A stretch of DNA of 39,821 nucleotides from Candidatus Parepulonipiscium sp. PG-Nuni2H_MBin01 (GTDB taxonomy: Bacteria; Bacillota; Clostridia; Lachnospirales; Cellulosilyticaceae): the NCBI GenBank assembly GCA_001994995.1, contig MDJM01000067.1, positions 1 to 39,821 on the forward strand. Reading direction: 5' to 3'. How positions within the stretch are numbered: position 1 is the stretch's first letter; each line of letters starts with the position of its first letter. The position numbers and the translations under genes are program-made. The notes under the pieces were generated by a model. The model was not told the DNA's origin, searched no databases, and saw nothing but the letters and a program-made list of their open reading frames with translations. Positions 10,618 through 16,226 of this stretch are shown here, piece by piece.

Positions 10618-11205
10618 TCACAATTTTTTTTTATAGGTATAAAGACAGCTACAATGCCTTATACCGGAAGAAATTAAATCAGCCATTTTCATAACTAGAG
10701 AAAGTCTAGTTGTTTGAATAACAGACATATTCATAGTAGGACTTTTTAAATTTACAATTCCAATAATGTGTAAATCCCCAACAGCCGGGAGGTCCTTCTT
10801 AACACCTGCGCCAGGTTTTATCGCTCCTTCTCCAATAGCTACACATCCTACATTTTCTGCACTACCTAAGCAGGCATCTATAGAAATGATTAACGCATGG
10901 GGATGGCGAAATTTTATATAAGAAATAGTCTCAGCTAAATTTTTTGCATGAACAGGTTTTTCTAATGTTCCATAAACATGAATATTAGTGTGATTGAAGT
11001 CTTTTAATTTATAGCCAATTAAAGGACCTAAGCTATCTCCTGTAGCTCTGTCAGTACCAATACAAACTAAAATTAATTCTTCTTGATATAATGGAAGGTA
11101 TAGATTAAAGTATTTATATAGTACACGACAGAAATCACGAAAGTGATGTCCATCATGAACATTGATATAAATAGGGGATTTTTTTTGGATTTCCAATTGT
11201 TGCAT
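10618..11205 (-). CDS. yyaC: Spore protease-like protein YyaC
   Basis: This is a 195-residue member of the YyaC family of sporulation proteins, which share the hydrogenase-maturation/GPR-like protease fold. The family pattern is clear: VCIGTDRATGDSLGPLIGYKL, VYGTLEKPVHA, then SIDACLGSAENVG and the GxGxKKDLPAVGD region. In Bacillus yyaC is a forespore gene of poorly defined function. The start is ATG 11205 (MQQLEIQKK) with AAGGTGGCGG upstream; an in-frame GTG at 11217 overlaps that ribosome binding site. The gene is convergent with the DUF1540 gene, and both have their own terminators. Its presence implies that the organism has, or recently had, a sporulation programme. Confidence 0.88.
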   Translation of the reverse strand: MQQLEIQKKSPIYINVHDGHHFRDFCRVLYKYFNLYLPLYQEELILVCIGTDRATGDSLGPLIGYKLKDFNHTNIHVYGTLEKPVHAKNLAETISYIKFRHPHALIISIDACLGSAENVGCVAIGEGAIKPGAGVKKDLPAVGDLHIIGIVNLKSPTMNMSVIQTTRLSLVMKMADLISSGIRHCSCLYTYKKKL

Positions 11206-11391
11206 GATTTCCGCCACCTTTTACCAATTTTTTGCTATATATTTATTATGCACCATTTTTTAGAAAAATATAAGGGGGGTAGGGGCGTTTTTTGTAGAAA
11301 AAATATTTCATGTTATCGACACAAAAGACTAAATTTTGCGCTAGTTATGTAGTATAATATATGTATGGAAGAAGATGGAAGGAGAATAACA

Positions 11392-12753
11392 ATGGGCAGA
11401 ATGACTTACGATCCTCGTGAAGGGGAGAAAAAAACAGTATCAAAAGGTAGTACATCAGGTAAAGGGAAGACTTCAAGTGTAAATGGAAAAGAAATTGACG
11501 CAACAGAAAGATATTCTAAATTAGTGGAAAATATCGAATCTTTAAGACCAGTAGGAGATGTTGAATGTGAGCATATTGTTTATATTGAAGATTATGCTTA
11601 TACATACTTGTATCAATACGCTGGGACAAACCCGACTAAAGAGCAAGCAGCAATTATAGTTGGTGAGTATTATGAAGATACTAAAGAAGCTATTGTATCA
11701 GGGATTATACCTGTAAATGAAGAATATCTTGATGCAGGTGAAAATTGGATAGGACAAAAAGCATTAGATGCTGTTATGGCTGAAAAGGAGCAATATTTTC
11801 CAGGGTCAAATATTTTAGGATGGTTACACATGCAACCCGGCTATGGGACTATGGTTAGCTCGAAAGAGGTTAAAACCCATAGGGATTTATTCCCGCAACA
11901 ACATACTATATTGTTTCTGGTAGACCCTATTAATAAAGTGGAGACCTTCTTTATATATGAGGAGGAAACCTTAAAAGAACAAACAGGTTACTATTTATAT
12001 TATGATGCAAATCCAGCTATGCAGGATTATATGCAACAAAAACCTTTGATTGAGGAAAAAGAACATTTTGAGGATACGGCAGTGAAACAGTTTAGAGAAA
12101 TGGGTAGTAAAAGAAAACAAGAGTATGAAGATAAACAAAAAACTAATTTTTCAGTAGTAGCAGCATCTTTAGTGGTATTAGCTTTAGGTGTGGCATTGTC
12201 ACGCGTTACAGGTGGCGATGATGATTTATTTGGCCAACAAGCGCAAGCTGCAATAAGTCAGGGAGTGCAGGATGAAGAGAGTGGCTATTCTATTTCCTTT
12301 GGTGAGGAAGAGCTGACAAATGCATTAGTTAATGAAGCTATCAACACAAGCGCTAAACTAGAGGATGATGCGGTAGTTATAGAAGCATCAGCTCCTATTG
12401 TAGAAGCGCCAGAAACTACTGTAGTTGCTGTGCAAGCTGATACAACTGTAGTTGTGGAGGTAGAAGAGATTGAGGAAGAGGTTGTGGAGATAGAAGAGAT
12501 TGAGGAAGAAGTTGTGGAAACTGCACAAGAAGAGATTGAGGAAGAGGCTGTAGCAGTAGTTTCCGAAAATGTAGAAGAAGCACATGAAGATGAGTTTATT
12601 GTATATACTGTAGAAGAAGGGGACACAATAAGAAGTGTTAGTGCCAAACATTTTGACAGCGAAGGTCGTGTATGGGACATTATAGAGTGGAACGACTTAG
12701 AGAATGGTGACCACATTTATGTTGGACAACAATTAAAAATTCGTGTAGAATAA
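11392..12753 (+). CDS. JAMM/JAB-like domain, transmembrane helix and LysM domain protein
   Basis: This protein of 453 residues has three parts. Residues about 50-215 resemble an MPN/JAB fold with the sequence GWLHMQPGYG...SSKE. This aligns to the JAMM zinc motif H-x-H-x7-S-x2-D as His146-x-Gln148-x7-Ser156-x2-Glu159, so one metal His and the Asp are replaced. Residues about 253-272 form one hydrophobic helix (FSVVAASLVVLALGVAL). After it comes a long Glu/Val-rich acidic stretch with a 10-residue repeat, and then a C-terminal LysM domain (about 404-451: YTVEEGDTI... VGQQLKIRV). No signal peptide is seen, so the JAB-like part should be cytoplasmic and the LysM outside at the cell wall or cortex. 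The start is ATG 11392 with AAGGAG upstream; an earlier ATG at 11365 has no ribosome binding site. A TATAAT lies at 11353-11358. Function is unknown; a non-catalytic scaffold is likely. Confidence 0.8.
   Translation: MGRMTYDPREGEKKTVSKGSTSGKGKTSSVNGKEIDATERYSKLVENIESLRPVGDVECEHIVYIEDYAYTYLYQYAGTNPTKEQAAIIVGEYYEDTKEAIVSGIIPVNEEYLDAGENWIGQKALDAVMAEKEQYFPGSNILGWLHMQPGYGTMVSSKEVKTHRDLFPQQHTILFLVDPINKVETFFIYEEETLKEQTGYYLYYDANPAMQDYMQQKPLIEEKEHFEDTAVKQFREMGSKRKQEYEDKQKTNFSVVAASLVVLALGVALSRVTGGDDDLFGQQAQAAISQGVQDEESGYSISFGEEELTNALVNEAINTSAKLEDDAVVIEASAPIVEAPETTVVAVQADTTVVVEVEEIEEEVVEIEEIEEEVVETAQEEIEEEAVAVVSENVEEAHEDEFIVYTVEEGDTIRSVSAKHFDSEGRVWDIIEWNDLENGDHIYVGQQLKIRVE
12451..12546 (+). repeat. Tandem 30-base repeat coding an acidic linker
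   Basis: Three units begin GTTGTGGA at 12451, 12481 and 12511. The third carries a 6-base insertion. They encode VVEVEEIEEE-type decapeptides in the JAB/LysM protein and are a candidate site of length variation. Confidence 0.8.
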
Positions 12754-14375: not shown

Positions 14376-15512
14376 ATGAAATCTGGTAAAATAATGGGTG
14401 TAGTAGCATTATTTATTATTGCATATATAGCTTATACTGCTATTACGTATCAATCAAAAGATATAAGTCAACTTAAAGTTAGTAATACTATATTGGAATT
14501 CGACCCGTTAAAGATGGAGTATGTTGGTGTAAACGAAGGACAAGTTATATATATTAGCGGAGATGGTATTAAGGCCCTGAATAAGAAAGGAGAGGAAGTT
14601 TGGGCAGATACATTTTCTCTTAAGGATATAATTGTGTCTCAAAAGGAGCCTTATTTAGCAGTAAGTAATTTAAGGAATAAGCAAATTTATCTGTTTAACG
14701 ATAAAGGTAAGCAGGCGGAAATCTCTTTACAAAATCCTGTGGTAGGCTTTTGTGTTAATCCATCGGGGTATGTAGCAGTTATTGAGGAGATTGATGGAGG
14801 GCATATTATTTCTGCGTATGATAATACTGGTAGGTTTTTAGAGGTAAATAGTGGTAGCTTTACTTCTAATGGGGATTATCCTATAGCTGTAGAAATTTCG
14901 CCTAATAATGAGCTTATTATGGTAAGTTATTTGTATTTAGGCGACACTCAGCTAGCGTCTACAGTAGGTGCAATAGCAGTGGCTCAGCCGCTTGTGGCAG
15001 TGGGCGAACCTATGCTTTTTGGTAATATGGAAAGTGATAATTTAGTATATGAAATTGAGTTTATTTCTAACAATGTGTGGGCTAGCATAGGGGATAAATT
15101 TATAACTTTTTATAGTATTAATGGAGAAATTTTACGCAGCGTGGATGTTAGCGGTGTTTTATATTCACCAGTGTTAACAAGTATGCCTAAAATTGGAGGA
15201 TTTATTCCTATTGTTAAAGGGGTATCTCATATTGGTAGTACTGTTCATGCAGTGAGTGAATTGACGCTATTAAATAGTGAAGATAGTCGCAGTGTAGAGA
15301 TGTCATTTGAGTCGCCTATTAGCTATGTTCATGCAAATAATCAAGGTGTAGTTGTAGGAGATGGCCGAGTTTTTAAAGCATATAATAAGATAGGTATTCA
15401 ATATTTAGAGTACCATGCACGCCAAGATGTCAATCAGCTAATTGCTACAGATGATATTATAATTGCAGTTACAAAAGATAGCGTAGTGAGGTTGGAGAAA
15501 AATTCTATTTAG
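14376..15512 (+). CDS. Membrane-anchored beta-propeller-like protein (DUF5711 type)
   Basis: The protein has 378 residues with one N-terminal hydrophobic helix (residues 7-23, IMGVVALFIIAYIAYTA) and no cleavage site, so it is probably a type II membrane protein with an external domain. The rest is rich in short beta-strand units of the type YISGDGIKALNKKGEEVW, as in PQQ/WD-like propellers. This fits the clostridial DUF5711 family, whose function is unknown. AAAGGAG lies ahead of ATG 14376. A CvpA-family gene follows after 21 bases and is likely cotranscribed, a pairing I recall from Lachnospiraceae. The family name is from recall; the architecture is directly visible. Confidence 0.65.
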   Translation: MKSGKIMGVVALFIIAYIAYTAITYQSKDISQLKVSNTILEFDPLKMEYVGVNEGQVIYISGDGIKALNKKGEEVWADTFSLKDIIVSQKEPYLAVSNLRNKQIYLFNDKGKQAEISLQNPVVGFCVNPSGYVAVIEEIDGGHIISAYDNTGRFLEVNSGSFTSNGDYPIAVEISPNNELIMVSYLYLGDTQLASTVGAIAVAQPLVAVGEPMLFGNMESDNLVYEIEFISNNVWASIGDKFITFYSINGEILRSVDVSGVLYSPVLTSMPKIGGFIPIVKGVSHIGSTVHAVSELTLLNSEDSRSVEMSFESPISYVHANNQGVVVGDGRVFKAYNKIGIQYLEYHARQDVNQLIATDDIIIAVTKDSVVRLEKNSI

Positions 15513-15533: not shown

Positions 15534-16226
15534 ATGTTGTTGGATTTATTAGTAATAGCGTTAATCATTATGTTTTGTATAGTATCTTATAACCGAGGAT
15601 TAGTTATAGCATTATACAAATTGTTTGGCGGAATAATTTCACTTGTGTTAGCATTTTTCTTATATAAGATAGTTGCTAGCGCTTTAGGTATGACTGAGTT
15701 GCCAGCATTAATATCAGAGTTTGTAGCAGGTTATTTAGTTAACTTAGATATAGTAGAAGGGGTGCAAGCCCAAGCGGCAGAGATTCGGGAAAACTTAGCA
15801 TTTTTACCAGATGCTATAGTAAATATGATTATACAAAATAATAATTATGAAGTATACTCTGTTTTAGAGGTAAACAACCTTATAGATTATGTTGCTGTTT
15901 CGATTGGTAACCTAATTATTAATGCGATTTCAATTGTTATTGCGTGGATATTATCTACAATTGGTCTGTCTATAGTTGTTAGTGGAGTTGACTTAGTAAC
16001 TAAATTGCCAGTATTAAATGCTGTTAATAAATTGGCAGGAGCAGTAATTGGATTTATTAATATTATTTTAATAATTTGGATTTTTTGCTTAATAGTGCCA
16101 TTTTTAATAGAAATGCCATCTCTAGTTTGGTTTAGGGATATGTGGGAAACTAGTTTTATATTGCAGTGGTTTTATAATAATAACTTTTTACTGGATTATC
16201 TTACGAGTTTGACGTTAAAAAGTTAA
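15534..16226 (+). CDS. CvpA family membrane protein
   Basis: This 230-residue protein has four or more hydrophobic helices and the CvpA family opening (LDLLVIALIIMFCIVSYNRGL...), then late helices from AVIGFINIILIIWIF. CvpA of E. coli is needed for colicin V production and has broader envelope roles; in Firmicutes the function is unclear. GGAG upstream supports ATG 15534. It lies downstream of the DUF5711-type gene and ends in a terminator. The loop between helices 2 and 3 (about residues 60-115) is longer than in E. coli CvpA. Confidence 0.75.
   Translation: MLLDLLVIALIIMFCIVSYNRGLVIALYKLFGGIISLVLAFFLYKIVASALGMTELPALISEFVAGYLVNLDIVEGVQAQAAEIRENLAFLPDAIVNMIIQNNNYEVYSVLEVNNLIDYVAVSIGNLIINAISIVIAWILSTIGLSIVVSGVDLVTKLPVLNAVNKLAGAVIGFINIILIIWIFCLIVPFLIEMPSLVWFRDMWETSFILQWFYNNNFLLDYLTSLTLKS

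Follow-up and report, generated by a model that had tools for sequence, protein, structure and literature searches.

A degenerate JAMM domain joined through one membrane helix to a LysM domain in Lachnospirales and its co-occurrence with endospore formation

What could a bacterium use a seemingly inactive JAMM/MPN domain for, when the same polypeptide crosses the membrane once and ends in a LysM domain? This question is raised by a gene at positions 11392..12753 (forward strand) of the window, i.e., the whole analyzed DNA stretch of 39,821 nucleotides. The host genome is a 2.7-Mb assembly from the same family as Epulopiscium and Cellulosilyticum, and the nearest named homologue, found in an Epulopiscium MAG, has 53% identity to the encoded protein.

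Gene start and layout of the protein

The ATG at 11392 is preceded by the Shine-Dalgarno sequence AGGAG (11380-11384) at a distance of 7 bases. No Shine-Dalgarno sequence was found ahead of the ATG at 11365, the start of the mechanical ORF call, and the expected transcription start is also located at about 11365. For these reasons the start at 11392 is favored over the weaker start at 11365, so that the product has 453 amino acids instead of 462 and the numbering Q148/E159 of the earlier analysis, here called the sequence-only reading, is correct. Residue numbers given here follow the 462-aa reading, from which 9 has to be subtracted for the 453-aa protein (Q157/E168 correspond to Q148/E159).

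From the N-terminus, the protein consists of an MPN/JAMM-fold domain with a lost metal site (residues 57-215; 11533..12009), a single transmembrane helix (residues 264-282; 12154..12210), an acidic extracytoplasmic linker (12211..12600) and a LysM domain (residues 414-459; 12604..12741), all encoded on the forward strand. The membrane helix was assigned by helix prediction together with the long helix 183-230 of the structural model. Since its N-terminal flank is basic, the N-terminus is predicted to be inside. Exactly one membrane helix was found in 86 of 88 homologues, and in 69 of these 86 the more positive side is the N-terminal one. The linker composition is 44 Asp/Glu and 1 Lys/Arg per 138 residues. 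The LysM domain was detected with Pfam PF01476 (E 3.7e-9) at 36.8 bits, above the curated cut-off of 20.9. The single membrane pass and the C-terminal wall-binding LysM domain proposed in the sequence-only reading are thereby borne out. Its idea of a tie between cytoplasm and wall is backed by the MPN fold, the membrane pass and the LysM domain, as far as the predicted topology holds.

In homologues of family f8 (L061 2023-2985, L062 401-1387) the QPGYG motif is retained and a LysM domain was not seen.

The MPN fold

A phmmer search with the single sequence against the PDB identified yeast Rpn11 (4owp_B, E 6e-5, residues 48-196), with GWLHMQPGYGTMVSSKE of the window protein aligned over GWYHSHPGFGCWLSSVD of Rpn11. 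Using a profile built from 73 relatives, the archaeal Rpn11 homologue was found with an E-value of 1.6e-5 and Rpn8 with 0.007. Residues 53-287 were modelled with AlphaFold2 on the 73 relatives (pLDDT 90.5), and the best Foldseek matches of this model were MPN proteins (E 1.7e-10). A second structural aligner gave the archaeal Rpn11 homologue 6fju_B with a Z-score of 17.0 and an rmsd of 2.7 over 155 residues, with BRCC36 and Rpn11 structures at similar Z (about 17).

The Pfam JAB models did not detect the window protein, for which Pfam and NCBIfam gave LysM-type matches only. The MPN assignment therefore rests on phmmer, Foldseek, structural alignment, the profile search and the intact relatives; those tested (H-x-H...D) exceed the Pfam JAB cut-off. 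On the basis of the model and the alignments, the assignment of residues 57-215 to the MPN/JAMM superfamily can be regarded as settled. The JAMM/MPN domain claimed in the sequence-only reading thus stood up to structure prediction and Foldseek search, and the predicted fold did not turn out to be unrelated to MPN.

Loss of the metal site

The degenerate JAMM motif reads G152-W-L-H155-M-Q157-P-G-Y-G-T-M-V-S165-S-K-E168 (11818..11868), opposite G-W-Y-H-S-H-P-G-F-G-C-W-L-S-S-V-D of Rpn11 in the phmmer alignment. The second His is replaced by Gln157 and the Asp by Glu168, which is the pair of exchanges (Gln148 and Glu159) already pointed out from the sequence. Glu93 (11641..11643) occupies the position of the JAMM catalytic Glu, where E is found in 63 of 88 homologues.

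Of the 88 homologues from Lachnospirales, 61 have Q and 12 have R at position 157, and none has H. The first His (position 155) is present in 48 and gone in 40; D and E occupy position 168 in 30 and 17 homologues, respectively, while the fold and the P-G-[YF]-G loop stay conserved. Since His157 occurs in 0/88, His155 in 48/88 and D168 in 30/88, the metal site is lost group-wide. An assignment as active JAMM metalloprotease (MPN+) was rejected, given H155-M-Q157...S165-S-K-E168 and the absence of His157 from the 88 homologues. Judged by these alignments, the window protein classifies as an MPN(-) pseudoenzyme whose metal ligands are lost in the whole orthologous group, in agreement with the earlier view that it resembles non-catalytic MPN proteins more than an active enzyme. 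The expectation that H-x-Q and E might be fixed held in part: the second His is universally absent, but Gln is common without being universal and the E is not fixed.

A peptidase that is still active and uses an atypical metal site formed by Glu93, His155, Gln157 and Glu168 would be compatible with the window species, which retains Glu93 and His155 and has an acidic residue at 168. Because the homologues form one clade, an activity common to them would require the ligands to be conserved, but no ligand combination is kept (His155 in 48/88, Asp/Glu168 in 47/88, His157 in 0/88), which makes such an enzyme very improbable.

Distribution and relation to endospore formation

Homologues were found in 62 of 76 sampled relatives and in 215 of 295 Lachnospirales genomes, and the MPN domain, the helix and the LysM domain persist over 22 families of the order. 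The presence of the gene was compared with that of the SpoIVA ATPase domain in the 76 relatives and then in the 295 genomes, and the resulting 2x2 table was counted by hand. Both genes are present in 199 of the 295 genomes and both absent in 68, whereas 28 are discordant (gene only in 16, spoIVA only in 12), many of the discordant genomes being incomplete MAGs. For the 213 near-complete genomes (≥90% complete and ≤5% contaminated) the numbers are 156 with both, 47 with neither, 5 with the gene only and 5 with spoIVA only (phi 0.87). These counts are not independent, since related genomes share losses.

The joint absence is also seen within families. Family f5 comprises 21 genomes with both genes, 1 with spoIVA only, none with the gene only and at least 6 with neither; in family f22, 9 genomes have both and at least 5 neither. 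Genomes free of both genes are full-size and complete and belong to several families (e.g., G027 with 3.4 Mb and 100% completeness, and G044 with 3.2 Mb), so that general genome reduction is not the cause of the joint absence. G025 and a few other near-complete genomes carry spoIVA without the gene, which is therefore not universally needed. In Lachnospirales the gene thus follows endospore formation, as determined by phylogenetic profiling.

Neighboring genes and promoter element

The divergent neighbor is yyaC (DUF1256; 10618..11217, reverse strand), which flanks the homologue in 51 of 88 loci. According to PMC3416734, yyaC belongs to the core sporulation genes under sigma-F, and both Epulopiscium and C. 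lentocellum have retained it. Downstream on the forward strand, a DUF5711 protein (14376..15512) and a CvpA/Colicin_V family membrane protein (15534..16226) are conserved neighbors in 46 and 42 of the 88 loci, respectively. In the window, glgA separates the gene from these two partners, and the genes farther downstream (TruB, RibF) are housekeeping genes.

Upstream of many homologues a common arrangement was identified, consisting of CGACA, a TTGAYA-like hexamer that begins 9 bases further on and, after a spacer of 21 bases, TATAAT at +36. In the window this element extends over 11317..11358 (forward strand) with CGACA at 11317-11321, the −35-like hexamer AGACTA at 11326-11331, the 21-base spacer and TATAAT at 11353-11358. 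In its strict form the element precedes 24 of 88 homologues, whereas shuffled sequences gave 0.2 and, of the 925 other genes in these loci, 2 have it.

Genes activated by Spo0A characteristically have sigma-A promoters with a long spacer. Read on the opposite strand, the Spo0A box TGTCGAA (PMC3485338) contains CGACA. Upstream of the homologues, the consensus motifs of sigma-E, sigma-K and sigma-G were not enriched, and a loose sigma-F/G pattern was in mild excess (12 versus 4.4 expected). The pattern of the homologue promoters was found before neither spoIIGA nor spoIIE in Lachnospirales (0/30 each), so that Spo0A control is only a candidate. From these motifs, the promoter may respond to a sporulation regulator, possibly Spo0A.

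The locus also has features that would fit a general envelope protein of vegetative cells, one that always ties membrane and wall and was lost along with sporulation through a shared genome change or through its linkage to yyaC. The promoter resembles a sigma-A promoter, classical sporulation sigma motifs are not enriched, glgA, truB and ribF are among the neighbors, and the DUF5711 and CvpA neighbors are without a shown sporulation role. Against such a protein stand the genomes lacking both genes, which are full-size and complete in several families (G027, G044). In addition, yyaC is adjacent in only about 60% of the loci, yet the concordance of gene and spoIVA is far higher. A general vegetative function is thus considered rather unlikely.

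Relatives outside the order and origin of the domain

A single-sequence scan of genome contigs found no relatives; a profile scan yielded more than 500. Since the search pattern of the latter included EDY, the conservation of EDY in that set is partly by construction; in a set found without the EDY pattern, the Glu was present in 61 of 61 and the Asp in nearly all sequences. None of the 88 Lachnospirales members lacks Tyr213, Asn216 or Met219, and homologues from outside almost never align in that segment. With the persistence of domain, helix and LysM over the 22 families, this points to retention for a purpose other than catalysis. Together, the E75/D76/Y77 helix and the Y213/N216/M219 segment give the impression of an interface specific to this lineage.

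When the class and the phylum were searched with profiles, many families of Bacillota were found to have homologues built in this way (MPN, one helix, often LysM). Outside Lachnospirales, H, H and D are intact in 23 of 39 homologues. In a maximum likelihood tree, a branch with 98/94 support divides the sequences into two groups, one with the 44 sampled Lachnospirales sequences and a degenerate copy from family f5, the other with the intact proteins and the two Rpn11 outgroups. Owing to this split, the intact homologues are to be seen as active-looking cousins and not as active members of the same order. Intact H-x-H...D homologues, which might have indicated an active enzyme, thus do occur outside the order, but none was found within it (0/88). 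The simplest reading of the tree is that catalysis was lost once, at the base of Lachnospirales. Separate site losses were found in other lineages (e.g., H-x-C in f46, G/R in f72 and f84).

In six genomes from five families, a JAMM gene is located near ubiquitin-type genes, which occur in varying subsets: ThiF-type E1, UBC-type E2 (PF00179), YukD-type Ubl (PF08817) and Prok-RING_1 (PF14446), in addition to an S1C-like protease and an FHA membrane protein. These intact relatives are thus members of ubiquitin-like operons. Because some intact cousins occur in such E1/E2/YukD-like Ubl/RING operons, the window protein appears to descend from a deconjugase of a ubiquitin-like system in bacteria, having lost both its activity and its operon partners. 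Its own assignment to a ubiquitin-like operon was rejected, as E1, E2 and Ubl are absent from the scanned neighbors of the gene and a search of the window genome for E2, RING and YukD types gave none.

MPN(-) domains elsewhere pair with MPN(+) partners. In the same way, the dead domain could still serve a ubiquitin-like system by binding a Ubl or, like Rpn8 in its pairing with Rpn11, a JAMM partner that is active; two JAMM-TM paralogues are indeed close together in the intact operons of two families. This is already weakened by the missing cascade: a UBC-type E2 above the cut-off was found in 0 of 76 Lachnospirales genomes, Prok-RING_1 in 1 of 76 and a YukD-type Ubl in 8 of 76. A remaining function in a ubiquitin-like system is therefore improbable. 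The same scarcity bears on the ubiquitin-fold-binding scaffold considered in the sequence-only reading.

Possible role in spore and offspring development

The reading preferred here is that of a bitopic protein whose dead JAMM domain serves for docking in the cytoplasm and is held to peptidoglycan while spores or offspring develop. It draws on fold, dead site, predicted topology, ancestry, co-occurrence with sporulation, synteny and promoter element, and is considered somewhat probable. The ancestor would have been a deconjugase of the JAMM type that worked in a ubiquitin-like system of bacteria. After the decay of the active site in Lachnospirales, the domain would have been retained as a cytoplasmic module for protein docking. 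One helix would pass the membrane, the flexible acidic linker would bridge the gap, and the LysM domain would grip the glycan strands of peptidoglycan. The conservation of Tyr213, Asn216 and Met219 suggests that the MPN domain may bind a protein partner. The protein would be used in endospore development and, in Epulopiscium, in the sporulation-derived formation of intracellular offspring, where a cytoplasmic or membrane assembly would most likely be tied to the peptidoglycan of the septum or the engulfing envelope.

'Ca. Epulonipiscium viviparus' (L075) has kept both the gene and the promoter element. This organism produces live offspring by means of the sporulation machinery and has lost mature spores; many late spore genes are lost, and engulfment and cortex genes are kept (PMC3416734). 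Since the gene is retained despite the late-gene loss, a role up to engulfment or early cortex formation is suggested and not one in coat, resistance or germination. The protein would accordingly act in asymmetric division or engulfment, not later. SpoIIM and SpoIIQ are reported missing from Epulopiscium and C. lentocellum (PMC3416734), for which reason a tie between membrane and peptidoglycan is of interest there. If the proposal is true, the transenvelope anchor could supply part of the membrane-to-wall link in these bacteria; that it replaces SpoIIM or SpoIIQ is speculation.

The fuller scenario joins a single loss of catalysis at the base of Lachnospirales to a sporulation-stage transenvelope anchor, in which a ubiquitin-system fold is tied to peptidoglycan at asymmetric division or engulfment and in Epulopiscium offspring formation. 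Taken as a whole it can only be put forward tentatively. Neither the link to sporulation nor the descent from ubiquitin-like operons had been anticipated in the sequence-only reading. The gene adds an unannotated candidate to the sporulation genes of Epulopiscium and of a major order of spore-forming gut bacteria.

Comparison with known systems

Each of the elements has precedents, namely MPN(-) proteins, LysM anchors and operons for ubiquitin-like systems in bacteria. The MPN(-) subunits Rpn8, CSN6 and eIF3f likewise have an MPN fold, have lost the H-x-H ligands and serve as non-catalytic binding modules. In contrast to these, the window protein is bacterial, membrane-bound, fused to LysM and without a known MPN(+) partner in its genome, and by sequence it is nearer to Rpn11-type JAMMs than to Rpn8 (profile search). 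With the MPN(+) deconjugases Rpn11, the Caldiarchaeum Rpn11 homologue and PfJAMM1 it shares the fold and the GW-x-H-x-x-P-G-[YF]-G loop, whereas every sampled Lachnospirales member is without the second zinc His and the Asp is mostly replaced. SafA and SpoVID are LysM proteins of sporulation that are not known to be bitopic or to have an MPN domain. LysM likewise serves spore development in these two, and the window protein differs from them by its bitopic build and the MPN domain.

RING-bearing bacterial ubiquitin-like operons (prokaryotic RING fingers) were reportedly described by Burroughs in 2011. Bacterial operons with E1, E2, Ubl and JAB were described by Iyer (2006; PMC1779556), where LysM is not mentioned. 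The JAMM-TM-LysM component of ubiquitin-like operons is the nearest intact relative of the window protein, while the Lachnospirales component stands alone and dead. The combination of dead JAMM, membrane helix and LysM in one chain, order-wide and tracking endospore formation, was not found in the literature searched; in this literature, no paper joins LysM, JAMM and sporulation in this sense. An old part of the ubiquitin pathway seems to have found a new, structural use in spore development, since the relatives carry the gene almost only when able to form endospores. If true, bacteria would here offer a clear example of an enzyme of the ubiquitin system that has lost its activity and now serves structure or regulation, in parallel to eukaryotic Rpn8 and CSN6.

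JAMM-TM-LysM proteins elsewhere in Bacillota

The Bacillota hold a broad JAMM-TM-LysM family, some members of which look active and are located within full E1/E2/Ubl/RING operons. Their presence in such operons places a ubiquitin-like system at the membrane and the wall. The operon loci are L309 3965-12402, L310 4247-11347, L185 4289-7746, L294 1551-7951, L293 and L297. In L309 and L310, the RING gene lies between two JAMM-TM paralogues, of which only one has LysM; the H-T-H...D motif is intact in both. The Ubl proteins (L185 7435-7746, L309 12124-12402, L294 2713-3009) have a conserved ITAG near the C-terminal end, followed by short variable tails (I; NGSV; RGRACLTGWN). Judged from these tails, trimming would be needed to expose the glycine, perhaps by a JAMM protease.

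In family f120 (L298 5739-6614, L304 5712-6695 and relatives), orphan MPN-TM proteins carry an intact HTH...D motif, with x-G-L-G in place of P-G-Y-G, and an E1/E2 gene was not detected nearby. By their motif, these proteins are possibly active wall-tethered JAMM proteases. Another degenerate MPN-TM-LysM lineage with the site G/R...D (L186 3176-4189, L187 3384-4520) adjoins apparent flagellar filament genes (FliD-like and FlaG-like by eye) in two genomes.
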